Both the position numbers and the translations under genes were made by a program. This document shows, in pieces, positions 5,141 to 31,101 of a DNA stretch of 33,614 bases. This DNA comes from Tepidiphilus sp. J10. Its GTDB lineage: Bacteria; Pseudomonadota; Gammaproteobacteria; Burkholderiales; Thiobacillaceae. The notes beneath the pieces were generated by a model. The model was not told the DNA's origin, made no database searches, and saw only the letters and a list, made by a program, of their open reading frames with translations. How positions within the stretch are numbered: the stretch's first letter is position 1; each line of letters opens with the position of its first letter. The stretch spans positions 1 through 33,614 of the forward strand of contig CAMDHJ010000019.1 of assembly GCA_945897865.1 (NCBI GenBank), written 5' to 3'.

Positions 5141-5153
5141 TGTAAAAGTACCC

Positions 5154-5226
5154 TTAGGAGCGACTTCCGCCACGAAAGTCGTTGAATTGGCGCCGAGCGT
5201 TATCGCAACTGAAGCCGCTTTTGAAG
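5154..5226. repeat. degenerate REP-type palindromic element
   Basis: Between the sulfotransferase and GT2 genes, TTAGGAGCGACTTCCGCC (5154-5171) and ATCGCAACTGAAGCCGC (5202-5218) form imperfect inverted arms. They match the consensus TGTAGGAGCGG...CCGC seen intact at 24425-24504. The first arm continues CACGAAAGTCGTT, the usual tail of such elements. Mutations have broken perfect pairing, so this is an old copy. Confidence 0.6.
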
Positions 5227-5233
5227 TGAGTTT

Positions 5234-6130
5234 ATGAATCCAATGCCACTCGTTTCCGTCGTCATACCGGCCTACAACTCAGCCTGGTGCATTCGCCGGG
5301 CAGTGGATAGCGTGCTGGCGCAGGATTTTCGCGACTTCGAGTTGATCGTAGTTGACGATGGCAGTCTGGACGATACTGCAGCCATCCTCGCTGGTTATGG
5401 TGATGCCATTCAAGTAATCAGCAAGCCGAATGGCGGTCTGTCCAGTGCGCGCAATGCCGGAATTTCCTCCGCGCAGGGGGCGTTTGTGGCTTTTCTAGAT
5501 GCCGATGATTGGTGGATATCCGCGAAACTGACGCGCCAGGTTGCGCTGATGGCGGCTCGTCCGGAATTGCTGTTCTGTTCCACCGCCAGCGCCGTGCAAA
5601 CACCTGCGGGGGAGCGGTTGGCCGACTGGCGCTGCGGTGTGGGGATAGCATCCACGCTGGAGTCCATTTTTTCAGCTAACGCTTATGTCGCGGGCAGCGG
5701 TTCTGCTGTTCTGGCAAAGCGCGAAGCGTTCTCTCTGGCTGGTGGTTTTGATGAAAGCCTGCGCAGCCTGGAAGATATCGACATGTGGATGCGGCTGGCA
5801 GCATTGGGTGGCTTTGCCTGCATCGACGAAGTTCTGGTATGTATTGAAAAGAGCGCGGCCAGTATGAGCGGCAATCTGACTGTGATGCGTTCTGCAGCTA
5901 TTCAGGTCATGCGCAAGAACCGCAGCCTACTGCCCTCGAATCTGCGCGGTGGATTCTGGCGCAAAGCCTACGCTAGTATGCTGACCGATTATGCCAAGTG
6001 GGCTTATAGGAAAGGCCAGACTTCGCAGGCGCTTACTGATCTATTGCATGCGTTATCGCTGGCACCAATGCAACATGGCCGGTTAATAATCAGCTTGCTA
6101 GTTGCTGTTATTACAAAACAAAAGCTCTAA
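5234..6130 (+). CDS. family 2 glycosyltransferase
   Basis: Inverting GT-A sugar transferase of 298 residues, cytoplasmic or peripheral. It opens PLVSVVIPAYNSAWCIRRAV, with the nucleotide-binding DDGS at 41-44 and the DADD metal motif at 89-92. SLEDIDMWMRLA around residue 178 is the ED(x)DMW acceptor/base motif of GT2 enzymes. There is no membrane segment. The ATG overlaps the stop of a short frame derived from the preceding palindrome. Donor and linkage are unknown; by position it belongs to the fucose/sulfate cluster. Confidence 0.9.
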   Translation: MNPMPLVSVVIPAYNSAWCIRRAVDSVLAQDFRDFELIVVDDGSLDDTAAILAGYGDAIQVISKPNGGLSSARNAGISSAQGAFVAFLDADDWWISAKLTRQVALMAARPELLFCSTASAVQTPAGERLADWRCGVGIASTLESIFSANAYVAGSGSAVLAKREAFSLAGGFDESLRSLEDIDMWMRLAALGGFACIDEVLVCIEKSAASMSGNLTVMRSAAIQVMRKNRSLLPSNLRGGFWRKAYASMLTDYAKWAYRKGQTSQALTDLLHALSLAPMQHGRLIISLLVAVITKQKL

Positions 6131-6162
6131 ATTAGAAAACCATGAAAATCTTTAGATTCTTT

Positions 6163-6237
6163 CTACGCGCTGCTTCAACCGCGAAGTCGGCAGTGAGATT
6201 GATGAAACCTTCGATCGCTGCTGAAGCTGCTCCTGCG
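6163..6237. repeat. degenerate REP-type palindromic element
   Basis: Arms CTACGCGCTGCTTCAACCGC (6163-6182) and ATCGCTGCTGAAGCTGCTCC (6214-6233) are imperfect inverted copies. The second matches the reverse of the TGTAGGAGCGGC...GCCGCGA consensus, and the 'CCGCGAAG' tail after the first arm matches the copy at 24425. It fills the gap between the GT2 gene and the sulfatase-like gene. Confidence 0.55.
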
Positions 6238-6265
6238 CTGGCTGCTACTAAATTTCTACGCTGCC

Positions 6266-8347
6266 ATGGATGATCTGAGTTTTCTGTCTCTAGCAATCCA
6301 GGCTAGCAATGTGGTAGGGCTGGTGGCTTTCGTATTTGCTTTGTTACTGCTGGCGAAGTCTTTGATTGACTTCAGCCAGACCGGGCCGGTGCGGCGGGAG
6401 GTGCTTACGCATCATCGGGTTTATTTGGTATTCAGCTTGGCCCGGCTAACCCTGGCGGCTTTTCTCATCGCCAACCTGCTCGCATTTCCCGGTGTGCTGG
6501 CCTATCTATTGGGCTTATCCATTTTTGGTCTGGCCTATTCCAAGATGGCGGTTGGTGTGGCTGCCGTTTTATCGCTAAGCGTGCTGTCATTCTTTCAATT
6601 CTGCCGCGTGCTACATGACTCGCCGGGTGTGATTGTTGCCTCGTCTCACTACGCTATTCATCGTTTCTACCCACTTTGGGCGCTGCTTTCGCCAAATCGA
6701 CTTGCGGGGTCCGGCTTTCTGTTGGTCGGTGTTTATTCTCTGTGGTTGGCCGTGGGGGTTGCTGCGCTGCTGGGACAAGGCGCTGTTTACTCAGCACTCG
6801 GTATTGCCATCCTTCATAGCTTGGTGTGGTTGCTTTATCGAGTCTTCATCAAAGACAGTGAACCCTTGCCTGTCAAGAAAGCGTTACCAGGCGAGCGGAC
6901 CAATTTGTTGATGATCGGCTCCGACACCCTGCGCGCGGATCGTTTGGGCCACGCCGGCTATCGGCGTTCACTGACGCCTAATCTGGACCGTCTGGCCGAG
7001 CAGGGAGCCAATCTCACGCATTGCTATGTGCCCTGTGCGCGCACCGCTCCCAGCCTGCTTTCCCTGATGACAGGAACCTGGCCGCATACCCATGGCGTGC
7101 GCGACAACTTTGTTACTGACGAACAGACCAGGATACGACTGCCAACTCTGCCGGGCTTACTGGCTGATGCGGGCTACAACACGGCGGTTCTCAGTGACTG
7201 GGCTGGCTCGGATATGGGTAAGTTTGACCTTGGTTTTGACGAACAGGATTTGCCGGGCGACCAGTGGAATATCCGTTTCTTCATGCGCCAGGGGCCCAAG
7301 GACATCCGGCTGTTTCTGTCTCTGTTTTTTTCCAACCGCATCGGCAAATTCTTCCTGGAGGAAATCTATTACCTGGGCGGTGTCCCGCTAACTAGGCAGT
7401 TGGGCTTGCGCGCCAGGCAGATTCTGGAGGAGTTGGCTTCAGAAGCGCAGCCCTTCTTTCTGAATGTGTTCATGGCCAGCACGCATCCGCCCTTCTCCAG
7501 TGAATATCCGTATTACACGATGTATGCTGACCCCAACTATCGCGGCCCTTCTAAGTTTGCTATGGCCAAGCTGACCGACCCGTTCGAGATCATTCGCCGC
7601 CAGGGCGAACCGCGCGAGGAGTTCGATCTGGAGCAAATTCTCGATCTCTACGATGGTTGCGTGAAAAGCTTTGATGATGAGTTGGGCCGAATTCTTGAAT
7701 ACCTGCAAGCCAGTGGTCTGGCAGAAAACACCTTGGTGGTGGTCTACAGCGACCACGGCATGGAATTCTTCGAACATGAAACCTGGGGGCAGGGCAATTC
7801 GGCCATTGGCGACTTTTCGGCACGGGTGCCGGTGGTGATAGCCGGTCCATCCATGAAAGCGAGTACCTGTTTGGATGGCGTCACCCGCAGTGTCGATCTG
7901 GCACCCAGCCTTCTGGAGCTGCTGGGACTGACCGTTCCCCCTGAAATGGAAGGGATCTCACTTGCCGCAGCTTTGAAGGGCGGCGAACAGCCAGAATTAC
8001 CGGCTTTCTACGAAACCGGCATCTGGTTAACCGAGGTACCGGGCATGCCGGTGGGCCACCTTAGTTATCCAAACTTGCTGGACATGCTTGAAATACCTGA
8101 TCCGAGTAGCGGAACGATGGCGATCAAGCCGGAATACCAGGCTCGGATCATTGCCGCCAAAGACCGCATGATACGGAGCGGACGCTGGAAGCTGGTTTAT
8201 CAACCGCTGGTCGATGGAAAACTCTTAAGGCTTTACGACCTGGAAAACGACCCGACTTGCCACGAGGATGTTGCGGCGGCAAAGCCGGAGGTTACTGCCC
8301 GGCTTTGGGGCTTGCTCAAGGATTGGATGGCGAAGGATCTGCTTTAG
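6266..8347 (+). CDS. membrane sulfatase-superfamily transferase/hydrolase with Thr nucleophile
   Basis: 693 residues: about five hydrophobic helices in residues 10-190, then an alkaline-phosphatase/sulfatase catalytic domain from about 210. Metal ligands are visible as LMIGSDTLRADRLG (D220) and VVYSDHGMEFFEHETWGQG (D496, H497), with THPPF near 407. The nucleophile segment reads CARTAPSLLSLMTG, so T260 falls where sulfatases have the Cys/Ser that becomes formylglycine and the CxPxR Arg is absent. Known relatives with membrane helices and a Thr nucleophile are phosphoethanolamine and phosphoglycerol transferases (EptA, LtaS). A transferase of a phospho-substituent, or a phosphodiesterase, is therefore more likely than a true sulfatase. 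The C-terminus overlaps the opposing TPR gene by 32 bases. Confidence 0.82.
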   Translation: MDDLSFLSLAIQASNVVGLVAFVFALLLLAKSLIDFSQTGPVRREVLTHHRVYLVFSLARLTLAAFLIANLLAFPGVLAYLLGLSIFGLAYSKMAVGVAAVLSLSVLSFFQFCRVLHDSPGVIVASSHYAIHRFYPLWALLSPNRLAGSGFLLVGVYSLWLAVGVAALLGQGAVYSALGIAILHSLVWLLYRVFIKDSEPLPVKKALPGERTNLLMIGSDTLRADRLGHAGYRRSLTPNLDRLAEQGANLTHCYVPCARTAPSLLSLMTGTWPHTHGVRDNFVTDEQTRIRLPTLPGLLADAGYNTAVLSDWAGSDMGKFDLGFDEQDLPGDQWNIRFFMRQGPKDIRLFLSLFFSNRIGKFFLEEIYYLGGVPLTRQLGLRARQILEELASEAQPFFLNVFMASTHPPFSSEYPYYTMYADPNYRGPSKFAMAKLTDPFEIIRRQGEPREEFDLEQILDLYDGCVKSFDDELGRILEYLQASGLAENTLVVVYSDHGMEFFEHETWGQGNSAIGDFSARVPVVIAGPSMKASTCLDGVTRSVDLAPSLLELLGLTVPPEMEGISLAAALKGGEQPELPAFYETGIWLTEVPGMPVGHLSYPNLLDMLEIPDPSSGTMAIKPEYQARIIAAKDRMIRSGRWKLVYQPLVDGKLLRLYDLENDPTCHEDVAAAKPEVTARLWGLLKDWMAKDLL

Positions 8348-16080: not shown

Positions 16081-17082
16081 GGCTGTTGGTGAAATCGAGT
16101 GGGTAAAGCTGTTCATGCGGGCAACCTGCGATCCAGTTTTCCGCAGAGGAAATAGGCCAAGTTGATGAAGTTCTGGATGTTTCGGTATCCGCAGGCGCGG
16201 CGTTTGGCGAGCTGGATTTTGTTTGTGATCCCTTCCAATAGGCCGTTGGTCAGGTGCGTCTTGGTTAAGCGGACGATGCTGGTCCAGTGCGACTTAACCG
16301 TCTTGGCGAACTGCATGAAAGACTGGATGCCGGAACGCTGGACTTCCTCGGACCAGGCCGTGAGGTGGGCTTCCGCACTAGCGGTGTTTGACATCGCCCA
16401 GAGGTCGTTGAACAGCGCCTTGAGCCGATACGCCTCGCCCAGCGTCTGGTAGTCATCTATGAGTTTGACCAACTCCAGTCGTCGCTTGTCCGACAGTCGG
16501 TCCCAGTCCTTAAGAAAGGTGTATTTATGCCCTTTCAAGGCGTCGTGCTCGCGCCGTGCCAGCTTTCGCACAGTGTCCATCGCTTCGTTGAGTAGCTTGA
16601 CCACATGAAAGCAGTCAAAGGTGATTTTGCCTTCGGGATCGCGTTAGCCATGCCGGCCATGAAAGCGGGCGACATGTCCATGCTTGCCTCGACGACACGT
16701 AGCATCTCAGCCAAACGCTTGACGGGCATCTCCCGCTCGATCAAAGCCATCGCCAGGGCTTAGAAAAGCAGCGTGAAGCCGCTCCCGGGTCGCGCCCAGG
16801 GCACAGGCACCGTGTCGTGTACCGGGCAGGCATGGCCGTTGGCGTCGGCAAACCGGCTGCCGCGCGCAAAGCCGCTGGTCATGTGAAGTTCCTCCCCGCC
16901 TTTCGTTCCCGGCTTGAATTCAACGCCGTCCACTTGCCACGGTGTGTGCAGGTCCAGCGCCATGCCAAAGAGTTGTTCACTGTTCATGAAGATGTGCTCA
17001 AGTCGGATTCATTTTCCACGAAATTGAGCCAACTTCCCGCAGCGCTGGCAACGTCTTTACCAACTGGATTTCACCAAAAGCC
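16081..17082. mobile_element. degenerate ISL3-family insertion sequence
   Basis: Terminal inverted repeats are 16081-16108 (beginning GGCTGTTGGTGAAATC) and the reverse complement of 17055-17082 (beginning GGCTTTTGGTGAAATC), identical at 25 of 28 positions. They enclose a broken ISL3-type transposase on the minus strand. The 1,002 bases are shorter than typical ISL3 elements because of an internal deletion. The flanking octamers (16073-16080 and 17083-17090) do not match, so no target duplication remains and the surroundings were probably rearranged after insertion. Confidence 0.85.
16113..16987 (-). pseudogene. ISL3-family transposase pseudogene
   Basis: The N-terminal part reads MNSEQLFGMALDLHTPWQVD and continues to HDTVPVPWARPGSGFTLLF. 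The central zinc-finger/HTH section between 'HDTV' and 'VPWARPGSG' is missing, an internal deletion near 16800. A TAA at 16760-16762 stands where the family has Glu before ALAMALIERE. A one-base loss in the A-run near 16627 (GCAAAATCACC) shifts the frame, after which FDCFHVVKLLNEAMD and the C-terminal half continue to the stop at 16113. Three independent lesions mean this transposase is inactive. The C-terminal DDE-domain part (GHKYTFLKDWDRLS..., NGLLEGITNKIQLAKRRACGY) is well preserved. Confidence 0.88.
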
Positions 17083-20639: not shown

Positions 20640-21329
20640 TCAAAGTAGTTGGGCCTGTACTAGCGCCCTCTGGACGATACCCGCCACTTCTAGTGCGCCA
20701 GATCGGTTCAGGTGTACGGCATCATGCCCATCAAGGGACAGCATGAACCAGGCGCGGGCGCGACTTTCGCCAAGTTGTTCCAAGGCTTGGCTGCTTGCCT
20801 TAGTCAGATCAATTAGCGGTACATCATTGATTGATGCGATCTTTCGCATTGCCACCGGGTAATTTCCATGAGTATCGACCAGATGGCCTTGCTCGAATTT
20901 ATAGCGTGCAACAGGCGTCACCAGAACGGGTTGTGCCCCCATCTCACGGGATTCGCTAATGAATTGTTGAAGTAGCATGCTGTAGTCCGCGAAAGGCTCT
21001 GTGTGGCGAGTTGTGTCAGGTAGGGCATCTATATGTCCGAACTGAATCAGCAGTAAATCTCCTGCGACGAGCTTGCTGCGCACCCCAGGCCAGTGGCGTT
21101 CTGCGAATCGGCGCGTGCTACTGCCTTGTACTGCATAGTTGAGTACCTTGGCGCGTGTATGCAGAATTTGACGCAATTCTTGCCCCCAGCCAGACATTGG
21201 TGAGTTGGAAGCCGGAAAGTCTGCGACGGTGGAGTCGCCAATAAGCACTACACGTCGCTGGCTGGTTGCTGATGTATGACACCCTGAAAGCAACCAGAAG
21301 AGTGCCGCGAGAAAGTTTCGCCGGCGCAT
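20640..21329 (-). CDS. SGNH/GDSL esterase lipoprotein
   Basis: 229 residues. MRRRNFLAALFWLLSGC is a lipoprotein signal ending in a lipobox Cys (C17), so it is an exported lipid-anchored enzyme. VVLIGDSTVADF carries the nucleophile S33, GWG and NYAVQGSS follow, FGHID supplies the oxyanion/GxND-like block, and DAVHLN gives D203 and H206. This pattern matches rhamnogalacturonan-acetylesterase-type (CE12) SGNH hydrolases. It probably removes O-acetyl groups from a polysaccharide in the periplasm or at the outer membrane. It starts 2 bases after the stop of an acyltransferase-3 gene, so acylase and de-acylase are co-expressed. Confidence 0.85.
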   Translation of the reverse strand: MRRRNFLAALFWLLSGCHTSATSQRRVVLIGDSTVADFPASNSPMSGWGQELRQILHTRAKVLNYAVQGSSTRRFAERHWPGVRSKLVAGDLLLIQFGHIDALPDTTRHTEPFADYSMLLQQFISESREMGAQPVLVTPVARYKFEQGHLVDTHGNYPVAMRKIASINDVPLIDLTKASSQALEQLGESRARAWFMLSLDGHDAVHLNRSGALEVAGIVQRALVQAQLL

Positions 21330-21331
21330 TG

Positions 21332-22444
21332 CTAGTGTCCAGCTGAAGTTACTGCCACGTCCTCAGGACGATGCTGAGAGCGACTTTTCAGGGCATTTAC
21401 AATCGGTAGTTCGACGTAAATGCCTATCAGAGCTGTTGCTATCAGTGCGACACCAACCGCGAGCGTGAAGACCACCGCTTCCGGCAATGCGTGGTAAAGA
21501 CCTGCCTTCAGAAGTGCCATGTAGGTCAGATTAATAAACAGGATGTGACCAAGATAGATCGAGTACGACACTGATCCCAGGCGGGCGAGCCATATGGGTG
21601 TGCGTATTGCTTTGCCGTTTTCGAGCGCCACCAGTGTTGCAAGCACTGCTGCAGAGGCTAAACCCAGCACAATCCGCCCCGCCTCTGAATGACGGTCGAA
21701 TGGTCCATACACTTCAAAAATCACGGCCGCAAAAAAAGCGATCAATGCAGCGACAAGGGTAGTGTGTGACGTACGCATAAAATGTCGCCGGGCTGCCGCG
21801 CCTACCAGAACCCCGAACAGGAATTGCAGACAGTGTGCGTTGTTGAGGTGAAGTGGTAGCTTGAATTGCACAATGTCTAGCGCATGGGCGAGGACATAGA
21901 TTCCCCATGCAATAAATAATCCGGTACCAATTCGTACATTAATTAGTAAGAGACAAAAAGCGACATAGAAAACAATCTCATACTGAAGCGACCAAGCTAC
22001 ACCGACATACTTGGGTTCTCCTTCGCCCATTAGCAGAAAAAGCGTGCCGGCGATGTCCGCTGAACTGATTTCCCAACCAGGGCCTTTGCCTGTTGCAAGG
22101 CGAGCAGCCGTTGTAACTGCGATTACGAGTAGCAGGATTGCCCAGTAAATCGGGTAGATACGCGAAAAACGCCGCCATAAATAACGTGGTAAGCGTTCAA
22201 CGCGACCAATGTCCGAATAATGTACGTAGGTGATGATGAAGCCACTGAGGACGAAGAAAAAATCGACGCCGACATAGCCGAAATCAAATATCCGATTAAG
22301 TCCAATATGGCCGGAGAAATGTTCAACTCGCATCAGGTTGGCTGCATGCAACAGCACGACAGCAAATGCGGCTAATGCGCGAGCTGCCTCGATAGAGGCC
22401 ATCTTTGGTGCGTTCTGGCGCAAGGGAGCTGAGGTAATGTGCAT
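21332..22444 (-). CDS. acyltransferase-3 family membrane O-acyltransferase
   Basis: 370 residues with about ten helices. SIEAARALAAFAVVLLHAANL carries the Arg (R22) and His (H33) of the family, and FGYVGVDFFFVLSGFIITYV and LWRRFSRIYPIYWAILL are standard acyltransferase-3 blocks. It probably O-acetylates a glycan at the inner membrane. The start is uncertain between ATG 22444 and ATG 22402 (MASIEAAR), as neither has a good ribosome site. Downstream it is followed within 2 bases by the SGNH lipoprotein. It is distinct in sequence from the acyltransferase at 3090 and so probably modifies a different position or glycan. Confidence 0.9.
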   Translation of the reverse strand: MHITSAPLRQNAPKMASIEAARALAAFAVVLLHAANLMRVEHFSGHIGLNRIFDFGYVGVDFFFVLSGFIITYVHYSDIGRVERLPRYLWRRFSRIYPIYWAILLLVIAVTTAARLATGKGPGWEISSADIAGTLFLLMGEGEPKYVGVAWSLQYEIVFYVAFCLLLINVRIGTGLFIAWGIYVLAHALDIVQFKLPLHLNNAHCLQFLFGVLVGAAARRHFMRTSHTTLVAALIAFFAAVIFEVYGPFDRHSEAGRIVLGLASAAVLATLVALENGKAIRTPIWLARLGSVSYSIYLGHILFINLTYMALLKAGLYHALPEAVVFTLAVGVALIATALIGIYVELPIVNALKSRSQHRPEDVAVTSAGH

Positions 22445-22478: not shown

Positions 22479-23492
22479 CTAATTGCCAAGCATCGTTTTT
22501 ACTTCCAATGGCGTCATGCTCTTTCCATTCAATTCCCGCATGAACCACTCGAAATAACCGCGTGTCTTGTCAAGGAAGCGGCTTAAGTCTGCTTCATTGC
22601 GAACGTAAGGCGTGTAGCCAGGGTGTACCGACGGAGAGTGAAAGCTGAAGACGAAGATGCGTTGGCCTTCATCCAGCATGGTGCGGGTCATGCGTTGCAT
22701 CTCTGACAGGGTGTAGTCCTCTGGCGACAAGCGGATGCGTTCGAAGGCGCGCAGGCGGGAGGTGATGCCGGGGAGACGCGCCCAGCTCAGTTTGGGGTGG
22801 GTAATCAGGCGATAGAACGGAGTGCCGGCGTTTTTCAGCCAGCCGGCGTAGCAGCCTCCTCCTGGTAGGCCGAGCAACTTGCGCTCACGGCCGAACCAGA
22901 ATGGTTCTGCGGTATAGCCTGAGTAATCTGGGCCGCTATCGCTGCTGTAGTCGATGGGGGGGGCGATGCTGATGTCGACTTCGTAGCCGAGTTCTTCCAG
23001 GATGGCGGCGCTGTTGGGGCCGTTGCCGTAGCGCCCAGCAAGGTAGGTCAGTGGGCGTTTGCCGAAATTTTGTTCGATGGTGTCGGTAAGCTGGCGCACT
23101 TTTTCGTATTCAAGCTGGCGTGGCAGGTTGCCAGGGTAGGTGTTGGCGCGCGTGAGTTGTTCGGTCAACGGGGGCGATACCCAGGGGTGCAGGTGGGTGC
23201 CGATCAGGGCGCGGCCATCATCCTGATAGCGGCGCAGGGTTTCGTAGCCCAGCGGTTGGCTGGCAATGGGGTAATCGATGACGTAGTTGGGAACGATGCC
23301 GTAGGCGTCAAATAGCTCTTGCGCACGACCGATATGGCGCATGTGTTCGACGCCGATTTCCGTGCGCGAATGTTCGCGGTTCCAGTCGAATTCTTCTTCG
23401 GTGTGGATGACCACCGACAGGATGGGGCGTGTATCGGCGGGAACCGCAATCTGTTGCGCGTTGGGGAAGAGGTCAGAGATCGAGGGCGACAT
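22479..23492 (-). CDS. WalW-like polysaccharide deacetylase family protein
   Basis: 337 residues of the glycoside hydrolase/deacetylase barrel. VVIHTEEEFDWNREH replaces the usual TFDD start with Glu-rich metal-ligand candidates, GTHLHPWVSPPL supplies H-x-H, and VFSFHSPSVHPGYTPYV is the C-terminal His block. These are characteristic of proteins annotated WalW in LPS loci. No signal peptide is evident. Its start overlaps the GNAT-like gene's end by 20 bases, so the two are coupled. It may act on a cytoplasmic or lipid-linked sugar. A deacetylase reaction is inferred from the fold only. Confidence 0.8.
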   Translation of the reverse strand: MSPSISDLFPNAQQIAVPADTRPILSVVIHTEEEFDWNREHSRTEIGVEHMRHIGRAQELFDAYGIVPNYVIDYPIASQPLGYETLRRYQDDGRALIGTHLHPWVSPPLTEQLTRANTYPGNLPRQLEYEKVRQLTDTIEQNFGKRPLTYLAGRYGNGPNSAAILEELGYEVDISIAPPIDYSSDSGPDYSGYTAEPFWFGRERKLLGLPGGGCYAGWLKNAGTPFYRLITHPKLSWARLPGITSRLRAFERIRLSPEDYTLSEMQRMTRTMLDEGQRIFVFSFHSPSVHPGYTPYVRNEADLSRFLDKTRGYFEWFMRELNGKSMTPLEVKTMLGN

Positions 23493-24336
23493 ATTCTGAA
23501 TAGAGATTCTGGATGTCGGCTTCGCCCAGTGTGTCGCTGCGGAATACTCGGTGGCGGTAGCCTTTCAGTTCGGTGTGCGGCCAGGCGGGTTTGCTCGCTA
23601 GCAGGCGCGTTTCCACCCGCGTGGTTGCCATCCCGGAGAGCAGGAAGTGGCAGCCGAGAACGGGCAGGTAGCGCAGGAAGGTATCCGGGTTGGTGAAGCC
23701 GATGATTTCGGCGCTGGGCAGGTTTTTCAGGGTGGCGCGTTTGTAGATGACCAAACTGCGGTCGTTGCCTTTGCCGACGGCAAGGAATTTAAGCCAGGGA
23801 AAATGTTTGTGATCCTGGTAAACCTTGCGTGACGCAGCATCCAGCTTCTGTTCGATATGGGATGGATTGCTGACGATGCCTGCGCCGTTTAGGCGCTGAT
23901 GCGGCGCCGGCAGGTTGAACAGCACGGTACGTGCTTCGTTCATGGGTGTGAATTTGAGGAATTTGAGTGACTGCTCCACCACGGCGGTGGGTGACAGGTC
24001 GGTAAAGTGGAATCCAGGTTGTGAGATCACCGCCATTGCCAGGCGCATGCTTTGGGTACGGTAGGCGTCGAGCACCATCCAGCTGGTGATGTTGCAGAAC
24101 TGTTCGAGTTTGCCGCGAACTGGGTAGGCGGCGTAGATGGCGCCGATGCCGCCGGCGATTTCTCCGGCTTCGTCACGGATCAAGAAGCCGTTGTTGGGCT
24201 TGTCCACGCCCCAGTTCTGGCGAAAGGCTTCCGCCCAGATATCGGCTGGGTGGCTGGGGTTGAGGTGTTTGTGCAAAAAGGCGCAGAACGCCGGCAGATC
24301 CTCGTCGCGGATGGGTTCGAGTTTGGGCAGGGCCAT
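23473..24336 (-). CDS. GNAT-like N-acyltransferase protein
   Basis: 287 residues. The first half resembles the acyl-CoA N-acyltransferase fold: LEPIRDEDLPAFCAFLHKHL, GFLIRDEAGEIAGGIGAIYA, then CNITSWMVLDAYRTQSMRLAMAVI at the position of the CoA-binding loop, though without a clean Q/RxxGxG/A. The second half (KVYQDHKHFPWLKFLAVG onward) lacks a recognised domain, perhaps a second degenerate copy. It overlaps the WalW-like deacetylase by 20 bases, suggesting N-deacylation and N-acylation of the same amino sugar. It is the 5' gene of the minus-strand run and diverges from the E1 gene. Confidence 0.62.
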   Translation of the reverse strand: MALPKLEPIRDEDLPAFCAFLHKHLNPSHPADIWAEAFRQNWGVDKPNNGFLIRDEAGEIAGGIGAIYAAYPVRGKLEQFCNITSWMVLDAYRTQSMRLAMAVISQPGFHFTDLSPTAVVEQSLKFLKFTPMNEARTVLFNLPAPHQRLNGAGIVSNPSHIEQKLDAASRKVYQDHKHFPWLKFLAVGKGNDRSLVIYKRATLKNLPSAEIIGFTNPDTFLRYLPVLGCHFLLSGMATTRVETRLLASKPAWPHTELKGYRHRVFRSDTLGEADIQNLYSEYVALDL

Positions 24337-24424
24337 ATTGGTATTTTGTGAGTGCGTGGGAGCGGCAAGACGTTAGCACAAAGGGCAAGAAAACTGGGTT
24401 AAGCTCGCGACCCAAGAATTCAGG

Positions 24425-24504
24425 TGTAGGAGCGGTCTTTGGCCGCGAAGGGGTGCGACAGGCGTTGGAGCGTACGATTTTGCGTCTGAAGACCGCTCCT
24501 ACGA
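24425..24504. repeat. intact REP-type palindrome
   Basis: GTAGGAGCGGTCTT (24426-24439) and AAGACCGCTCCTAC (24489-24502) are perfect 14-base inverted repeats 49 bases apart. The left arm folds on itself as GCGG-TCTTTGG-CCGC, followed by GAAG. This is the TGTAGGAGCGGN...CCGCGA type of repetitive extragenic palindrome known from several Gram-negative groups. It lies in the divergent gap between the GNAT-like and E1 genes. Two worn relatives lie at 5154-5226 and 6163-6237. Confidence 0.85.
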
Positions 24505-24570
24505 TGTTGTTTTCTCGCGGTTGATGCGGTTCTTTCGATCTACGGATTTTTAATTTCTTGCGATAGCCCC

Positions 24571-26577
24571 ATGTCCAGCTTCCCTATTCCCGGCTTCGAT
24601 CGTGACGCTCATGGCAACCCGATCATCGGCCTGACTCCGGATGCGCTCTATGCCTATGGCCATCTGATCCGCTCCAGCGAGCTTTTGGTGCTTGATCAGT
24701 TTTCGCGTGGTCTGGTCTCCGGTACGACCCATACCTGCCTGGGCCAGGAAATCTGTGCGATGGCGGTGGTGCGGGCGCTGACGCATCCAGAAGATGCGGC
24801 ATTGTCGAATCACCGAAATCATGGTCATTTTCTGGCTTATTCCGGTGAGTTCGTCGGCCTGGTGGCGGAGATCATGGGCCGCGCCGATGGGGCTTGCGGC
24901 GGCCGCGGCGGCAGTCAGCATCTGGTTTGGCGCTACTTTCATTCGAATGGTGTACAAGGCGGCATGACCGGCATCGGCGCTGGCTTGGCTCTGGCGCGCA
25001 AGTTGCATGGCAGTGGTGCGGTGGTTGCCGCGATGATTGGCGATGGCACGCTGGGCCAGGGTTTGTTGTACGAGGCGATGAATCTGGCTTCGGTGTGGTC
25101 GGTGCCTTTCCTGGTGGTGGTGGAGAACAACGGCATCTCGCAAACCACGGAGCCGCATCAAAACCTGGGCGGCGATATTCAGGCGCGCGGCGTGGCTTTT
25201 GGTTTGCAGACCTGGCGGGTGGACGATGCTTCTGCCGATTTCTTCGAGCAAGTCGCGGCAGCGGTGCAGCAGGTGCGCGACACCCAACGGCCAGGCTTTC
25301 TGGTCATTGATACGCGTCGCATGGGGCCACACTCCAAGGGGGACGATCTGCGCGATGAGGCGGTGGTTGCTGCCATCCGCGAACGAGACCCGCTGGCCGC
25401 GATGGGGCGCCGCCTCTCGGATGCGGCGCGGGTTGAAATCGAAGCGCGCAATGCCGCTTTTATCGAGCAGGTGAGGGAGGCCGCCAATGCCTCACCGGAA
25501 GCGATTTGTGACGATGCGCCGGAACATATTTTTGACCGTGCCGGCGAGCTGGAAGGCCCGGCGCCCAGCTATCCGACGGTGGCCGCGAAAACCAGCGTGC
25601 GCCTGTGCATCAATGCCGCGTTGAATCATCTGTTGGCGACTTACCCGGAAACCATCGTGCTGGGTGAAGACCTGCACGATCCTTATGGTGGCGCTTTCAA
25701 GGTCACCCAGGGCTTGAGCACCGCTTATCCCGGACGCGTGATTTCCACGCCGATTTCCGAAGCCGGCATTACCGGTGCCGCCATCGGCCTGGCGATGGAC
25801 GGTTTCCGCCCGATTCTGGAAATCATGTTCGCGGACTTTCTCTCGCTGTGCATGGATCAGCTTTACAACCATGCGGTGAAGTTTCCCGGCGTATTCCCGG
25901 AAGTGACGGTGCCGTTGATTCTGCGCACACCTTCCGGCGGCCGTCGCGGTTACGGCCCCACGCATAGCCAGAGCCCGGAGAACATCTTTACCGCGATACC
26001 GGGTTTGACCGTTCTATACGGTAGCCACCGTCACGATGTTGCCCGGTTGCTGGTCGATGCGTCTCGCCGCTGGCCTTATCCGACGTTGTTTCTGGAACAC
26101 AAGCTGCTGTACGGTGAAACGCAGGATGCCGGCGGCTACGAAATGCTCACGCCCGATCCGGATGACCTCGCCGCCCATCTTTTCCCGACACTGATCCGCC
26201 GCTGCCCGGACGCTGACCTGACGATTGTGGCCTATGGCGGCATGTTGCCGGTGGTGGAAGAAGCGGCGCAGCGCCTGGCAGACGAGGAAGAGTTGATGGT
26301 GGATATCGTCGTGCCCTCGCTGCTTTCTCCGCTGCCGCGCCGTACCTTGCTGGTGCATCTGATGAGTAGCGAGAAGGTGGTGATCGCCGAGGAATCGCAC
26401 CATGAATTCGGCATTGGCGCGGAAATCGCAGCCTGCCTGCTGGAAGCCGGTTATCAAGGCCAGGCTTTCCGTATCGGCACGCCGCCGGTGCCCATCGCAT
26501 CCGCGCGCAGCTTGGAGCGCCAGATCTTGCCGGACGCCGATAAGCTGATCGAAGACATTCTGGATAACCTGTACTGA
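24571..26577 (+). CDS. 2-oxoacid dehydrogenase E1, alpha and beta fused
   Basis: 668 residues. Residues 25-300 are an E1-alpha: HRNHGHFLAYSG, then GGRGGSQHLVWR, then the thiamine-diphosphate motif AAMIGDGTLGQGLLYEAMN...VVVENN. Residues 340-668 are an E1-beta: TIVLGEDLHDPYGGAFKVT, STPISEAGITGAAIGLAMDG, YGPTHSQSPENIF and the transketolase C-terminal part VAYGGMLPVVEEAA. It decarboxylates a 2-oxo acid and reductively acylates lipoyl-E2. The alpha-beta fusion resembles branched-chain/acetoin-type E1 more than AceE. It starts an E1-E2-ACP run with an 8-base gap to E2. There is no E3 gene in the window, so a housekeeping dihydrolipoamide dehydrogenase would be needed. Substrate unknown. Confidence 0.9.
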   Translation: MSSFPIPGFDRDAHGNPIIGLTPDALYAYGHLIRSSELLVLDQFSRGLVSGTTHTCLGQEICAMAVVRALTHPEDAALSNHRNHGHFLAYSGEFVGLVAEIMGRADGACGGRGGSQHLVWRYFHSNGVQGGMTGIGAGLALARKLHGSGAVVAAMIGDGTLGQGLLYEAMNLASVWSVPFLVVVENNGISQTTEPHQNLGGDIQARGVAFGLQTWRVDDASADFFEQVAAAVQQVRDTQRPGFLVIDTRRMGPHSKGDDLRDEAVVAAIRERDPLAAMGRRLSDAARVEIEARNAAFIEQVREAANASPEAICDDAPEHIFDRAGELEGPAPSYPTVAAKTSVRLCINAALNHLLATYPETIVLGEDLHDPYGGAFKVTQGLSTAYPGRVISTPISEAGITGAAIGLAMDGFRPILEIMFADFLSLCMDQLYNHAVKFPGVFPEVTVPLILRTPSGGRRGYGPTHSQSPENIFTAIPGLTVLYGSHRHDVARLLVDASRRWPYPTLFLEHKLLYGETQDAGGYEMLTPDPDDLAAHLFPTLIRRCPDADLTIVAYGGMLPVVEEAAQRLADEEELMVDIVVPSLLSPLPRRTLLVHLMSSEKVVIAEESHHEFGIGAEIAACLLEAGYQGQAFRIGTPPVPIASARSLERQILPDADKLIEDILDNLY

Positions 26578-26585
26578 GGAACACT

Positions 26586-27692
26586 ATGGCTCACGCCCTG
26601 CACGCCCCGCGCGTCAACAATAACGACGACATCGTCCAGGTCATCGCCTTTCGTGTCGGCGTTGGCGATTTCGTCAAGCAAGGCGACATCGTTCTCGATG
26701 TGGAAACCGACAAGGCAATCGTCGAAGTCGCTGCTGAGAAGGAAGGTTACGTGTTGAAGCTGATGTGCGAGATCGACGACAAGGTCGCTGTTGGCTCTAT
26801 CCTGCTCTGGCAGGGGGAAAGCGCCGACGAACCCGTGCCGGAGATCGAGGTTGCGACCGTAGCCTCCGGCGGTGGCAATGCTCGCCCCACTGCCAAGGCG
26901 CGTGCCTTGCTGAAGGAACTCAGCCTGGACGCCAGTGTGATTCCCGCTGCGGGCGACCGTTTGACGCTTGCCGATGTGGAATCCTATATGGCTGCGCATG
27001 GCATCAAGCGTCGCGACCACACGCCCGCCGTCGCCGTTTCAGCGCAGGAAAGCCTGCCGGATGTGCCGGGCGAGTTGCGCGATCTCAATGCCGAAGAGCG
27101 TGGCATGCTGATTACGGTGTCCTGGCATCGTGACCATGCCGCCGCGACCTATCTGGAAGTGGAATACGACCCCAAAGCCTGGGAAGACCACGCCGCCGCC
27201 TATGCCAGCGCCAACAAATTGATGCTGTCGCCGCTGCTGCCGCTGCTGGCTTATCGCCTGGTGCAACTGGTCAAGGCCAGCCCCCGACTTAACGCCACGG
27301 TGGTGAACGGCAAGCGCTTCGAATACCAACCGGTGAACCTGGGCTTTACCGTGCAGGCCGGCGAAACGCTGTATCTGACGGTGGTACGCGATGCCGCGTC
27401 ACTTGAGACCAAACAATTCATCGAGAACCTGGGCGAAGTGCAACGTCACGCCCTGCAGCGCAAGCTTTCGCGCGATGAAACCACCGGTGCGACAATCGCC
27501 TTTTCCAGCATGGCGCGCTGGAACGTCAGCCGCCACATCCCCATTCTGCCGCCCTATTGCTCGCTGATGATCGCCCACGCCGCACCCAAAGGCAGTGGTC
27601 GCGCCGTGTTGGGCGCCAGCTACGATCACCGCGTACTGTCTGGCTTTGACGTCGCCCGTTTGTTGATGGAACTGGCCAAGCCACCCGTCTGA
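26586..27692 (+). CDS. lipoyl E2 acyltransferase of 2-oxoacid dehydrogenase
   Basis: 368 residues. A lipoyl domain spans 1-80 with DVETDKAIVEV and lipoylated K43. A short peripheral-subunit-binding-like segment (RPTAKARALLKELSLDASVI and LADVESYMAAH) lies at about 98-140, and the catalytic domain at 150-368 ends ASYDHRVLSGFDVARLL. Here the DHRxxDG signature reads DHRVLSG, with His348 kept but Ser352 in place of Asp. E2 normally passes the acyl group from lipoyl to CoA. With an ACP gene 22 bases downstream, transfer to a carrier-protein phosphopantetheine arm is a possible variation. A GGA site lies 5 bases before the ATG, overlapping the E1 stop. Confidence 0.9.
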   Translation: MAHALHAPRVNNNDDIVQVIAFRVGVGDFVKQGDIVLDVETDKAIVEVAAEKEGYVLKLMCEIDDKVAVGSILLWQGESADEPVPEIEVATVASGGGNARPTAKARALLKELSLDASVIPAAGDRLTLADVESYMAAHGIKRRDHTPAVAVSAQESLPDVPGELRDLNAEERGMLITVSWHRDHAAATYLEVEYDPKAWEDHAAAYASANKLMLSPLLPLLAYRLVQLVKASPRLNATVVNGKRFEYQPVNLGFTVQAGETLYLTVVRDAASLETKQFIENLGEVQRHALQRKLSRDETTGATIAFSSMARWNVSRHIPILPPYCSLMIAHAAPKGSGRAVLGASYDHRVLSGFDVARLLMELAKPPV

Positions 27693-27714
27693 TAACTCAA
27701 CCAAGGAAATCTGA

Positions 27715-27981
27715 ATGAATCTCGACCGTGATGCAATTAAAGCCGCCGTGCGCGCCAAAGTCATCGAACTGGCGAAAAATCTCGGCATGGACGCCAGCGA
27801 CATTGGCGACGACGACATCATTCCCGCCACCGGCTATGTCGATTCTGCTGCCATCCTGGAACTGGTGGTCTGGTACGAAGACGCCTACCAGATGCCGCTG
27901 AAGCAGGAAGAAATCAACATCGACAATCTCGGCTCCATCAATTCAATGACCGAGTTTGTGCTCAAGCGCAAGGGCGGCTGA
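27715..27981 (+). CDS. dedicated acyl carrier protein
   Basis: 88 residues, acidic, four-helix ACP. GYVDSAAILELVVWYED contains the phosphopantetheine-attachment Ser44 in a D-S-A context (canonical D-S-L), and GSINSMTEFVLKRK is helix IV. The size and sequence differ from the fatty-acid ACP and resemble DltC-type or stand-alone carrier proteins. A strong AAGGA site sits 8 bases before the ATG. It lies just after E1 and E2 and before the MBOAT, so it probably holds the acyl group that the membrane machinery transfers. Holo-form needs a phosphopantetheinyl transferase encoded elsewhere. Confidence 0.9.
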   Translation: MNLDRDAIKAAVRAKVIELAKNLGMDASDIGDDDIIPATGYVDSAAILELVVWYEDAYQMPLKQEEINIDNLGSINSMTEFVLKRKGG

Positions 27982-28261
27982 ACTGCATTGCACAGGCCTT
28001 ATCCGTTTTAGCGATTTGGTGTGTCAACCCGATATTTCATAAAGGCTTGCGTGCCCTCGCTGGTCCCTTGTCCACACCGGAAAGTATCGCTTAGTCGGAC
28101 GTATGAATAACTACGCTACTTCTTCGCGAAATTCCCATTGCAAACAAAGTCCGACAGGCTCCTGGCTCGCAACCTGGGCATCTCATCGCCTATATTCACC
28201 CGGGGGCAGGGGAAAAAGAGGGAGCAGGATCAAGCTCTGGGGAAATCTGACATAAGCGAAC
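27982..28261. other. non-coding gap before MBOAT
   Basis: 280 bases without a convincing gene. AGTCGGAC (28093-28100) and GTCCGAC (28149-28155) are short inverted arms 48 bases apart, and a purine-rich stretch GGGGGCAGGGGAAAAAGAGGG lies at about 28201-28221. A promoter for the MBOAT gene may be here, but I see no clear -35/-10 pair or terminator. Confidence 0.35.
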
Positions 28262-29815
28262 ATGTTATTTAACTCAGTTGAATTCCTGTTTGTTTTTCTT
28301 CCTGCGCTGCTATTTGTGTTTTTTCTGCTGGGAAGATACAGCCATCGCCTTGCAGCTACGTGGCTGACAGCAAGTTCGTTGTTCTTCTATGCGTGGTGGA
28401 ACCCGGCCTATGTAGGCCTGTTGCTCGCGTCCATTGTTTTCAACTATCTGGTTGGCTACGGCTTGGCACGTGGTAACGACATCGGGTCGCCCCGGCGCAA
28501 GCGGTTGCTGATGCTCGGGATCGTCTGCGATTTGGCTCTTCTGGGCTATTTCAAGTACGCAAACTTTTTCATCGACAGCTTCAACGCCACGCTCGGTACT
28601 AGCTGGGGCTTTGCGGAGATCATCCTGCCGCTGGGCATCTCGTTCTTCACTTTTACTCAGATCGCCTTCCTGGTGGATGCGGCGCGGGGTGAAGCGAAAG
28701 AATTCGACTTTATCCACTACAGCCTGTTCGTTACCTATTTCCCGCATTTAATTGCCGGACCAGTGCTGCATCACAAGGAGATGATGCCCCAGTTCGGGCA
28801 GGCAACGACTTACCTCTTCAGTTATGAATTCTTCACTGTCGGCCTGACGATGTTTGCTTTGGGTCTGTTCAAGAAAGTGGTGCTGGCTGATGGCGTTGCG
28901 CCTTATGCCGCTCCTGTGTTCATGGCCGCAGAGTCAGGCGATGTACTGACGTTTTTTCAGGCTTGGGGTGGGGCTCTGGCCTATACGCTTCAGCTTTACT
29001 TTGATTTTTCCGGCTACTCCGACATGGCTATCGGGCTGTCCTACATGATCGGTGTGCGTCTGCCGCTCAATTTCAACTCACCTTACAAGGCAGTCAGCAT
29101 CGCCGATTTCTGGCGGCGTTGGCATATGACCCTTTCCCGTTTCCTGCGCGACTATCTCTACGTTCCTTTGGGCGGTAACCGGAAGGGGCCTGCCCGCCGC
29201 TATTTGAACCTGATGGCGACGATGTTGTTGGGTGGGTTGTGGCACGGGGCGGGATGGACTTTTGTCATCTGGGGCGGGCTGCATGGACTGTATCTTGTTG
29301 TGCATCAGGCTTGGCAAGCTTTTCGCAAATGGTTGGGCCACGATCTAACCAATACATCGGCGGCGGGGCGGGTGCTCGGGGTGGGGTTGACCTTCCTGGC
29401 GGTGGTAGTGGGCTGGGTGTTTTTCCGGGCCCAGAGTTTGGACGGGGCACTGGTTATCCTGAGCGGCATGGCCGGCTTGAATGGTGTGGCCTTGCCAGAA
29501 GCCTTGGCCACACGGGCTGGTCAGGTCGCTCCATTGCTGGGCAAGATGGGCGTGGTCTTCACGCCTGGTGGCGGCAGAGATTTCGTGATGAATTACATCT
29601 GGGTTCTGGTGCTGTTGCCGGTAGTGTTTCTCGCACCCAACACCCAGCAGATCATGGGGCGTTTCAAGCCGGCGCTGGATCATCGTGACGAAAACGCCAT
29701 CACACGCTTGGCCTGGTCGGCCGGACGGGGTTGGGCTGTGGTGATGGCTATTGTTCTGGCCTGCGGATTGCTGTCGCTGACGCGGCCGAGTGAATTTCTG
29801 TATTTTCAGTTCTGA
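28262..29815 (+). CDS. MBOAT family O-acyltransferase (AlgI/DltB-like)
   Basis: 517 residues with about ten helices. It begins MLFNSVEFLFVFLPALLFVF as AlgI-type proteins do. DFWRRWHMTLSRFLRDYLYVPLGGNRKG and LGGLWHGAGWTFVIWGGLHGLYL are the MBOAT core, the latter holding the catalytic His (WHGAGW). It moves an acyl group from a cytoplasmic carrier across the membrane to a polysaccharide acceptor together with an SGNH partner. Its TGA overlaps the ATG of the next gene (29815). The ACP immediately upstream is a likely acyl donor, as DltC is for DltB. Confidence 0.95.
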   Translation: MLFNSVEFLFVFLPALLFVFFLLGRYSHRLAATWLTASSLFFYAWWNPAYVGLLLASIVFNYLVGYGLARGNDIGSPRRKRLLMLGIVCDLALLGYFKYANFFIDSFNATLGTSWGFAEIILPLGISFFTFTQIAFLVDAARGEAKEFDFIHYSLFVTYFPHLIAGPVLHHKEMMPQFGQATTYLFSYEFFTVGLTMFALGLFKKVVLADGVAPYAAPVFMAAESGDVLTFFQAWGGALAYTLQLYFDFSGYSDMAIGLSYMIGVRLPLNFNSPYKAVSIADFWRRWHMTLSRFLRDYLYVPLGGNRKGPARRYLNLMATMLLGGLWHGAGWTFVIWGGLHGLYLVVHQAWQAFRKWLGHDLTNTSAAGRVLGVGLTFLAVVVGWVFFRAQSLDGALVILSGMAGLNGVALPEALATRAGQVAPLLGKMGVVFTPGGGRDFVMNYIWVLVLLPVVFLAPNTQQIMGRFKPALDHRDENAITRLAWSAGRGWAVVMAIVLACGLLSLTRPSEFLYFQF

Positions 29816-31101
29816 TGCAATTTCAGAATATGCGGCGCTATCTTCCCCTCTGGCTTGTTGTGACCAGCACCCTGTTGCTGGCGGTCGCAGGGTTCAACGT
29901 AATCGTGGACCCCTATGGCCTGTTCAGGGTAGTCGATGCGCCGAGTTTTAACGCAATCAAGCCCAAGGCGGGTGTCCATGGGGCGACGGTGAAGGCGTAT
30001 CAGGTGCTGCGTGTGAGACCGCACGGTCTTATATTGGGTAATTCACGAGCTGAAGTCGGCTTTGATCCGCAACACACTGCCTGGCCGGCCAAATCGTATC
30101 CGGTGTTCAACTTGGCGTTACCGGGGACTGGGACCAAGACCTCACTGCGATATCTGCAGCATGTGTTGGAAAGTGACGCAAGTGGTAGAGCGGGCAAGCC
30201 CGAGGTTGTGGTTTTGGGTATGGATTTAATGGATTTTCTGGTTGATGCAAGGGAGCCGATCCGAGCAAAAGCGATTGTTGTTGAGGGGGGTAGATTGCTG
30301 GTTAATTCCGATGGTTCGCGCAATCCCAGGCGGTTTCTGCAGCAGGTGCGCGACTACGGTGAGGCGACCTTCACTCTGGGAGCCTTTCTGGATTCATTGC
30401 AAACCATTGGCAGCCAGCGGAACCCGTATTCAGCCGATCTGACTCCGCTGGGTTTCAACCCGATGCGGGATTACCTGAAGATCACGGCAGACGAAGGCTA
30501 TTGGGCGGTGTTCCGACAGAGAGACGTCGAGAACATCAAGGCTTACCTTCGCCGGCCGAAGGACATTTTCGATGCGACAGGACGTTCATCGCCGGCACTG
30601 GACGATCTTCGTCAGGTTCTACGCCTCTGCCGGCAGCATGGCATTGTGCTGCAATTGGTCATCTATCCGTACCACGCCCACTTGCTGGAAATTATCCGCA
30701 TCACTGGGCACTGGCCAGCCTTTGAGGACTGGAAGCGAGCCGTCGTGAACATCGTTGCCGATGACGCACTCACGGCTGGCGGGGCATCTATACCTCTCTG
30801 GGATTTCAGCGGGTTCAACGAGTTGACCAGCGAGGCCGTACCATCCAAGTCCGACCGTCAGACCAAGATGCGATGGTACTGGGAGGCCGGACACTTCAAG
30901 CGAGAATTAGGCGACTTGATTCTGGCACGTCTTTTTGGACATAAGGAAGTTACGACTGGCTTTGGGGTTTTGCTTGGTACATCAAATATTGAGCAGCAGA
31001 TCGCTGCTCTACAAGCGCAGGAAGTTGATTACAGACGAGTTTTTTCTTCGGAGATCGAGGAGTTAGAGCGCGTTGCTGAAGCTCTCCAGGCTCGAAGATA
31101 G
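29815..31101 (+). CDS. SGNH-like membrane partner of MBOAT (DltD/AlgJ-like)
   Basis: 428 residues. An N-terminal membrane anchor (residues 8-30, PLWLVVTSTLLLAVAGFNVIV) precedes an extracytoplasmic domain. VDPYGLFRV is the conserved loop after the helix. GLILGNSRAEVGFDP carries the Ser nucleophile in a GNSR block, and WYWEAGHFKRELGDLIL holds the late His with Glu/Asp neighbours. The last 50 residues are Glu/Gln-rich and probably coiled. The MBOAT plus SGNH pairing is the rule in alginate, Dlt and Pat systems, where the partner completes acyl transfer to the glycan. It overlaps the MBOAT gene by one base. Confidence 0.8.
   Translation: MQFQNMRRYLPLWLVVTSTLLLAVAGFNVIVDPYGLFRVVDAPSFNAIKPKAGVHGATVKAYQVLRVRPHGLILGNSRAEVGFDPQHTAWPAKSYPVFNLALPGTGTKTSLRYLQHVLESDASGRAGKPEVVVLGMDLMDFLVDAREPIRAKAIVVEGGRLLVNSDGSRNPRRFLQQVRDYGEATFTLGAFLDSLQTIGSQRNPYSADLTPLGFNPMRDYLKITADEGYWAVFRQRDVENIKAYLRRPKDIFDATGRSSPALDDLRQVLRLCRQHGIVLQLVIYPYHAHLLEIIRITGHWPAFEDWKRAVVNIVADDALTAGGASIPLWDFSGFNELTSEAVPSKSDRQTKMRWYWEAGHFKRELGDLILARLFGHKEVTTGFGVLLGTSNIEQQIAALQAQEVDYRRVFSSEIEELERVAEALQARR

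Follow-up and report, generated by a model that had tools for sequence, protein, structure and literature searches.

The DNA analysed here (the window) is positions 1-33,614 of contig CAMDHJ010000019.1 of Tepidiphilus sp. J10 (assembly GCA_945897865.1; 33,614 nucleotides). It contains a glycan locus in which genes encoding a 2-oxoacid dehydrogenase E1, a lipoyl E2 acyltransferase and a stand-alone acyl carrier protein (ACP) are contiguous on the plus strand (Table 1). Open reading frames (ORFs) of at least 70 aa were read between 20000 and 33614, and those of at least 150 aa between 1 and 20000. An initial annotation had described five consecutive plus-strand genes, with E1, E2 and ACP followed by an MBOAT O-acyltransferase and an SGNH-like partner, and this arrangement holds: all five are present at the coordinates and on the strand reported, gaps of 8 and 22 bases lie between E1 and E2 and between E2 and ACP, the MBOAT and SGNH genes overlap by 1 base, and neither an E3 nor an adenylating ligase is found among the window ORFs read. 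It did not include a pair of genes, encoding a GNAT-fold acyltransferase and a deacetylase-like protein, which overlap by 20 bases, are divergent from E1 and start 234 bp upstream of it; it also omitted the 280 bp which separate the ACP from the MBOAT gene. The genes on both sides of the divergent intergenic region, de-N-acetylase and GNAT on one and E1-E2-ACP on the other, are read here as a five-gene cassette for the N-acylation of a sugar, in which E1 and E2 would produce the acyl group, the ACP would carry it and the GNAT would perform the N-acylation. On the sequence data we consider this reading moderately probable.

Table 1. Genes and other features of the dehydrogenase-ACP region in the window
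Feature	Coordinates	Strand	Evidence
CE4/polysaccharide-deacetylase-like protein, 337 aa, putative sugar de-N-acetylase	22479-23492	-	Weak Pfam match; Foldseek of a low-confidence model
GNAT-fold acyltransferase, 287 aa, proposed acyl-ACP user	23473-24336	-	Foldseek of a low-confidence model
Divergent intergenic region between GNAT and E1	24337-24570	.	Sequence read directly
E1, fused 2-oxoacid dehydrogenase alpha-beta, 668 aa, thiamine diphosphate (ThDP) enzyme	24571-26577	+	Pfam E1_dh, Transket_pyr, Transketolase_C
E2 acyltransferase, 368 aa, one lipoyl domain and a catalytic domain	26586-27692	+	Pfam Biotin_lipoyl, 2-oxoacid_dh
Stand-alone ACP, 88 aa	27715-27981	+	Pfam PP-binding, 19.8 bits (cut-off 20.8)
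Dispersed repeat inside the ACP-MBOAT gap	28026-28153	.	12 matches in the J10 genome, counting itself
MBOAT O-acyltransferase, PatA/AlgI type, 517 aa	28262-29815	+	Pfam MBOAT, E 2.4e-37
SGNH-like MBOAT partner, 428 aa	29815-31101	+	Position behind MBOAT, 1-base overlap

Proteins of the cassette

The window E2 keeps, in alignments, the lipoyl lysine Lys43 (26712-26714) and the catalytic His348 (27627-27629), and shows Ser352 (27639-27641) at the usual Asp of HxxxDG, the canonical E2 motif. This region is HRVLSG in the window and the congeners, HRLLSG in locus L076, HRLLAG in L064 and HRFING in L133, L137 and L140, the Asp being replaced in all three E2 lineages, by Ser, Ala and Asn. One guess is that the loss of the Asp reflects an ACP, rather than coenzyme A (CoA), as acceptor. 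Two E3-like genes are located elsewhere in the genome of Tepidiphilus sp. J10, with 381 and 272 bits, both below the cut-off of 408.8, and E3 is probably shared with the housekeeping complexes. A tree was made of six cassette E1s and 16 other E1 alpha-beta rows of the order, leaving out the fragmentary E1s of L064 and L160 as well as the cut E1 of L137. The six cassette E1s form one clade (support 100/100) against the 16 others. These show 28-34% identity; six are fused and ten have a stop inside the match, and the latter are probably separate alpha and beta genes. An ACP was detected near none of the 16.

The ACP has a putative phosphopantetheine serine, Ser44 (27844-27846), in GYVDSAAILELV, and Asp43-Ser44 is invariant in 10/10 aligned sequences. 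Its best match in the PDB is a D-alanyl carrier protein (E 1.1e-4), and its NCBIfam matches are the ornithine-lipid (ACP_for_OlsHI, E 5.5e-8) and cispentacin ACPs, both far below cut-off. An ornithine-lipid route, considered from the first of these, was kept only within the small-molecule or aminolipid alternative discussed below: the match is far below cut-off, and the main text of the OlsH/OlsI paper contains neither 'acyl carrier protein' nor 'pyruvate dehydrogenase'. Among the ten window ORFs searched with NCBIfam there is no AMP-ligase.

The window GNAT has no Pfam match, and its L133 homologue matches PF00583 at E 0.0038, below the cut-off; the low-confidence model of the window protein (pLDDT 61.6) gives Foldseek matches to proteins of the GNAT fold, namely N-myristoyltransferase, 2i00 and Eis2 (E from 2.3e-5, TM about 0.3). 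The deacetylase-like protein matches Pfam Polysacc_deac_1 at only E 0.14, and Foldseek places its AlphaFold model, also of low confidence (pLDDT 58.8), closest to polysaccharide deacetylases and ChbG (E from 5.9e-6). Between the GNAT and E1 genes, at about 24430-24505, there is an inverted repeat resembling repetitive extragenic palindromic elements: taggagcggtctt ... aagaccgctccta.

Conservation in the genus and the MBOAT genes

E2 is found in 13 of the 23 genomes of the genus, and the whole block, with deacetylase-GNAT divergent from E1-E2-ACP, in nine of the 12 congener regions read. The intergenic gaps in nine congener loci and the window range from about 8 to 65 bases between E1 and E2, and from about 19 to 115 between E2 and ACP. 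A genome scan gave 15 loci, all from metagenome-assembled genomes (MAGs): five are labelled Tepidiphilus, Hydrogenophilales, Gallionellaceae or Thiobacillaceae, and the remaining ones bear less precise labels. Many of these loci are the same contigs as the congener regions, and the scan added L074, which shows a complete block, and L079; in L078 and L079 the block is present up to the contig edge, and L076 (64%) shows E1-E2-ACP with the upstream part cut. Wider searches for E2 gave two of 398 genomes in the phylum (Tepidiphilus sp. J10 itself and G320), one of 369 in the class (J10 itself, by profile), one of 48 in the order of G320 (G320 itself), and no match on plasmids. The surroundings of the cassette vary: homologues of the window GDP-fucose genes are present in L057 and L058, and glycosyltransferase genes flank the cassette in L022 and L060 (Pfam) and in L055 (homology to a window gene). 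In L059 (14582-19799), genes beside the cassette encode a HAD-UbiA prenyltransferase fusion and a short-chain dehydrogenase/reductase (SDR), both by Pfam, which we presume to resemble the polyprenyl-phosphate-arabinose pathway.

The 280 bp between ACP and MBOAT contain a dispersed repeat of about 125 bp, which marks a border between two modules. It is present in eleven other places of the genome with 71-92% identity, some of them of partial length. A scan of the gap for promoters and terminators found neither, which decides nothing. The SGNH-like protein, presumably with an AlgX/AlgJ role, has no family match in Pfam and no meaningful PDB sequence match. Its homologues are directly behind the MBOAT gene in L060 and L098; that of L060 (genome G671) matches in two frames (5059-5988 and 5990-6313) and may be frameshifted or misassembled. 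The window MBOAT scores 180 bits against NCBIfam TIGR04091 (cut-off 375), and the best PDB sequence matches of both MBOAT and ACP are Dlt proteins. Its C-terminus, FLYFQF (29795-29812), fits FxYxxF, which is described as taking acetyl from acetyl-CoA in PatA and as common to other bacterial MBOATs, whereas DltB uses the carrier protein DltC and a separate DltX instead (PMC12148441).

MBOAT homologues at E 1e-40 or better are found in eight of the 23 congeneric genomes: five of the 13 with E2 and three of the 10 without it. Homologues of at least 60% identity are present in three of the 13 E2-bearing genomes (J10, G671 and G687), the weaker ones showing 46-47%, and in one of the 15 genome-scan loci, several of which are short. 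Only two of the nine complete congener loci have the MBOAT on the cassette contig. In G671 the MBOAT pair is convergent to the cassette, with 2.9 kb between the ACP and the SGNH gene, and in G687 about 16 kb separate the ACP from the MBOAT, which is on the side of the deacetylase and has no detected SGNH homologue with it. Since the MBOAT is seldom beside the cassette and ends in the motif described for PatA, the MBOAT and SGNH genes are most likely an ordinary O-acetylation module, separate from the cassette. The set of five genes first described is therefore divided: E1-E2-ACP is a conserved unit, kept together in relatives, and its conservation does not extend to a position beside the MBOAT.

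Related loci and exchange of loading modules

Cassettes with E1/E2 are found in further lineages. L133, L137 and L140, from one genus of another family, show E1, E2, a methyltransferase (Pfam match in L133), ACP, GNAT and deacetylase on one strand, with no MBOAT after the ACP. Their identities are 37-42% for E1 and 27-28% for E2 (the L137 E1 is cut by the contig), and the genes beside ACP-GNAT are homologues of the window deacetylase with 49-50% identity. One contig of G320 ends with a PIG-L de-N-acetylase, a GNAT and the start of E1, and another starts inside E1 and continues with E2, ACP and a methyltransferase; we infer that the two adjoin. Each of the three E1/E2 lineages has the ACP after E2, one of them with the methyltransferase between. 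The presence of a methyltransferase in two lineages suggests a further tailoring of the acyl group there, and none is located beside the window cassette. In L160 (6543-8105), a protein with a C-terminal PIG-L domain (Pfam), whose N-terminal part reads like a methyltransferase, is encoded directly before GNAT and E1.

Relatives of the GNAT were found in 37 of 398 genomes of the phylum by profile search, in six of 300 of the order (outside the genus, G015 and G099) and in 32 plasmid records, 27 of them of Sinorhizobium; phages gave no match. The phylum search yielded 51 GNAT places, of which 38 are in the 36 regions examined, the own window and G015 were treated separately, and 11 others, among the weakest, were left out. 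In the one-contig genome G015 (L095, 11085-15603), successive genes next to a flagellar region encode an ACP, an FkbH-like protein, a MaoC/SDR fusion and the GNAT, a set which could act in flagellin glycan acylation. G099 (L096) shows a nonribosomal peptide synthetase (NRPS), a phosphopantetheinyl transferase (PPTase)-like gene and an ACP that ends 21 bases before the GNAT. The MaoC/SDR assignment is a Pfam result, and the FkbH, NRPS, PPTase and flagellar assignments in these two genomes were read from translations. Aureimonas plasmid pAU20a (GNAT at L100, 8980-9849) has an annotated acyl-CoA ligase and a pyridoxal phosphate (PLP)-dependent decarboxylase, both 'exosortase A system-associated', together with an ACP. 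The unannotated Rhizobium T1473 shows homologues of the Aureimonas ligase, decarboxylase and ACP genes in a row, and S. meliloti R14 an annotated decarboxylase and phosphopantetheine-binding protein, the ligase being present only as a shortened frame outside the listed features. The Paludibaculum GNAT adjoins a HAD-IIIC (FkbH-type) gene; a deacetylase, glycosyltransferases and an MBOAT are encoded in the vicinity, and no ACP was detected. Glycosyltransferases are near the GNAT in Sinorhizobium and Aureimonas as well. The GNAT homologue is annotated as a hypothetical protein in Aureimonas and on S. meliloti pSymB (L099, 8953-9840).

With a profile refined on the loci under test, an ACP was detected in 17 of the 36 regions but in none of 20 random windows from two genomes and none of the 16 other-E1 loci; this refinement favours the first count and makes the control imperfect. 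In an independent count over seven genomes, PF00550 matched 1-11 times per genome, and of the 15 matches in G402, G404 and G416 five are within 4 kb of a GNAT place; at 1e-4 this model missed the ACPs of the window itself and of L095. In 13 of the 36 loci a de-N-acetylase-like gene is no more than 400 bp away from the GNAT, and in 15 there is one anywhere in the region, compared with none in the same 36 control loci, the six queries having been taken in part from the loci under test, which favours the 13. PIG-L and CE4-like enzymes are unrelated families, and the presence of both beside the GNAT is a point for deacetylation followed by reacylation. L152 (7115-8071) and L158 (7096-8049) show a protein of about 318 aa between ACP and GNAT, with a relative in L162; that of L152 has no Pfam match, and these proteins are perhaps a further deacetylase type.

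The genes that could load the ACP differ among these regions. FkbH-type matches are present in six of the 36 (L134, L135, L143, L144, L153 and L159); such a gene occurs with an ACP in L095, L134, L135, L143 and L144, and without a detected one in L131 and L159. E1/E2 is found in four regions, L160 having the start of E1 only, and a ligase with a decarboxylase in two, L132 and L166, the former also with an ACP. MBOAT matches are present in four (L143, L144, L153 and L154). The GNATs with E1/E2 occupy three places in the GNAT tree, where this label changes three times and well supported branches force two of the changes; such changes can be losses, and the branches are long, which leaves details unsure. 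As the cassette E1s form one clade and their GNATs are in three places, reuse is suggested, that is, a loading module which may have recombined with different GNATs.

Proposed mechanism and alternative explanations

Gene content, conservation and module exchange are taken from the sequence; every catalytic step, the substrate and the acceptor are inferred. E1, with ThDP, would decarboxylate a 2-oxo acid and acylate the lipoyl arm of E2; from there the acyl group would reach the phosphopantetheine arm of the ACP, directly or via CoA, with E3 borrowed from housekeeping complexes. The de-N-acetylase would free the amine of a nucleotide- or lipid-linked amino sugar in the cytoplasm, and the GNAT would move the acyl group from the ACP onto it. 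E1/E2 takes the place of the ligase (with decarboxylase) or FkbH of sister cassettes, so that the acyl thioester would be made by oxidation and not with ATP. The initial annotation had proposed a Dlt-like scheme; its central idea, a dehydrogenase replacing the ligase in loading the ACP, gains support from the gene context, and the MBOAT/SGNH pair as receiver of the acyl group does not. In a broader and more tentative form, which may be true but which we would not put ahead of its negation, a dehydrogenase family whose E2s lack the HxxxDG Asp passes the lipoyl-bound acyl group straight to a dedicated ACP, an oxidative and ATP-free route. E1/E2, FkbH and ligase with decarboxylase would then be exchangeable loaders in a modular system of ACP, GNAT and de-N-acetylase (CE4-like or PIG-L) for swapping the N-acyl groups of surface sugars.

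Several observations weigh against the sugar N-acylation reading. E2 is absent from 10 of the 23 congeneric genomes, some of which are incomplete, and three of the 12 congener regions break the pattern: G686 (L062, 1-1559) shows E1 and a contig-cut E2, with another gene and no GNAT in the 1.5 kb upstream of E1; G685 (L061, 1149-2000) shows E2 with no ACP behind; and G675 (L063, 305-862) shows only a broken E2 remnant and no ACP. These are MAG-like assemblies of 77-84% completeness, and another contig of the G685 assembly, L078, carries deacetylase, GNAT, E1 and the start of E2. Many of the rows analysed are related MAGs, and in L023 and L024 the cassette is among housekeeping genes (reading of translations) and not in a glycan locus. 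No ACP was detected in 19 of the 36 GNAT loci, and L139, L142, L147 and L149 show GNAT and deacetylase only; a link to an ACP is thus not general in the family, and acyl-CoA may be the donor for some members. To these are added the bias of the ACP and de-N-acetylase counts, the misses of PF00550, and GNAT and deacetylase assignments that depend on low-confidence models.

Some of these points favour an ordinary E1/E2 complex making acyl-CoA, which the GNAT would use directly, the ACP having another role or being charged from CoA by a further enzyme. E2s of known complexes use CoA. GNATs transfer acyl groups from acyl-CoA (PMC4964394), and the GNAT-deacetylase pairs without a nearby ACP and the G685 E2 would fit. 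However, the ACP follows E2 in all three E1/E2 lineages, and GNAT relatives are near ACPs and FkbH-type genes, which are acyl-ACP makers in known pathways; this explanation is unlikely, though it keeps appreciable weight. It is less probable still that the product is an N-acylated small molecule or aminolipid and not a glycan. The ornithine-lipid and cispentacin matches of the ACP, far below cut-off, point in that direction, as do the GNAT beside an NRPS in L096 and the housekeeping surroundings of L023 and L024, but the GNAT occurs together with de-N-acetylase-like genes from two families that are unrelated. Moreover, the cassette has glycosyltransferase or GDP-fucose genes as neighbours in several congeners, glycosyltransferases are near the GNAT in Sinorhizobium, Aureimonas and Paludibaculum, and L095 is in a flagellar region (reading of translations).

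The scheme initially proposed, in which E1/E2 charge the ACP and MBOAT and SGNH export the acyl group onto a polysaccharide like DltB/DltD, fits the gene order of the window, and its E1-E2-ACP unit is real. It also accords with the MBOATs of G671 (with SGNH) and, about 16 kb off, G687, with the Dlt proteins matched by ACP and MBOAT in the PDB, and with MBOATs in four of the 36 GNAT loci and in L131. Against it are the repeat-bearing 280-bp gap, the presence of MBOATs of at least 60% identity in only three of 13 E2-bearing congeners (J10 included) and one of 15 genome-scan loci, the FLYFQF terminus, which points to acetyl-CoA use, and L133, L137 and L140, where the ACP is followed by GNAT and deacetylase. 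The MBOAT as acceptor of acyl-ACP was rejected as best reading on the gap repeat, the poor conservation in congeners and the terminus, and we regard the whole scheme as very improbable. The lowest standing of all is given to an E1 acting like AviB1/AviB2, adding a two-carbon unit to a keto sugar with no acyl thioester, a reading that was set aside as having hardly any likelihood. Its precedents are the pyruvate-dehydrogenase-like AviB1/AviB2, described as performing this transfer for avilamycin, and Pau11/Pau12, proposed for paulomycin; the passages on these name alpha and beta subunits only, and in each of the three lineages here E1 occurs together with a lipoyl E2 and an ACP. The sugar N-acylation cassette is thus retained as the preferred reading.

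Known systems share parts of this cassette. The exosortase-A-associated set of AMP-ligase, PLP decarboxylase and ACP (Aureimonas pAU20a, Rhizobium T1473, Sinorhizobium pSymB) likewise has a GNAT homologue (31-34% identity) in the neighbourhood of glycosyltransferases and a stand-alone ACP; ligase and decarboxylase presumably charge the ACP there, whereas E1/E2 is in their place here and neither is among the window ORFs read. The Dlt system (DltABCD, DltX) shares the logic of a stand-alone carrier protein charged for surface-polymer acylation, but here there is no ligase, the acceptor enzyme is most likely a cytoplasmic GNAT and not an MBOAT, and a C-terminal Tyr motif is part of the nearby MBOAT itself. 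Pyruvate and branched-chain 2-oxoacid dehydrogenase complexes have the same architecture of E1 and lipoyl E2, with the lipoyl lysine and the catalytic His; the window set differs in having no adjacent E3, an altered HxxxDG and an ACP as usual neighbour. FkbH-like enzymes and stand-alone ACPs make glyceryl-ACP in the tetronate pathways (PMC7489565). Such modules likewise combine a dedicated ACP with a dedicated charging enzyme, and FkbH-type genes replace E1/E2 in sister GNAT loci, but their donor is 1,3-bisphosphoglycerate and not a 2-oxo acid. HfsK and HfsH of the Caulobacter holdfast, a GNAT-fold acyltransferase and a polysaccharide deacetylase in one pathway, are a precedent for this pair, likened by function only, and the excerpts available describe no ACP or loading module. 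Some Aeromonas flagellin islands contain genes for an ACP, an oxoacyl-ACP reductase and an AMP-dependent synthetase (PMC7874193). Among the open-licence PMC papers listed in the searches made, none describes a set with E1/E2, ACP and GNAT in its title or abstract.

Known carrier-protein acylation of surface polymers uses a ligase as loader (Dlt). If true, loading by a dehydrogenase would provide a different way of making acyl-ACP and link the decoration of the surface to redox state and 2-oxo-acid pools. The recurring set of loader, ACP, GNAT and de-N-acetylase also offers a testable function for a GNAT-like family annotated as hypothetical in Aureimonas and in those of the listed Sinorhizobium records that carry annotation.

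The window glycan locus contains several acyl-modifying enzymes beyond the cassette and the MBOAT. An Acyltransferase_3 gene (21332-22444) adjoins a gene encoding a GDSL esterase-like protein (20640-21329), both by Pfam, and a second Acyltransferase_3-like gene is at 3090-4160 (translation only). A likely ISL3-type transposase remnant (16113-16604, translation read) is located beside a stretch of low G+C content (41%) at 14-16 kb.

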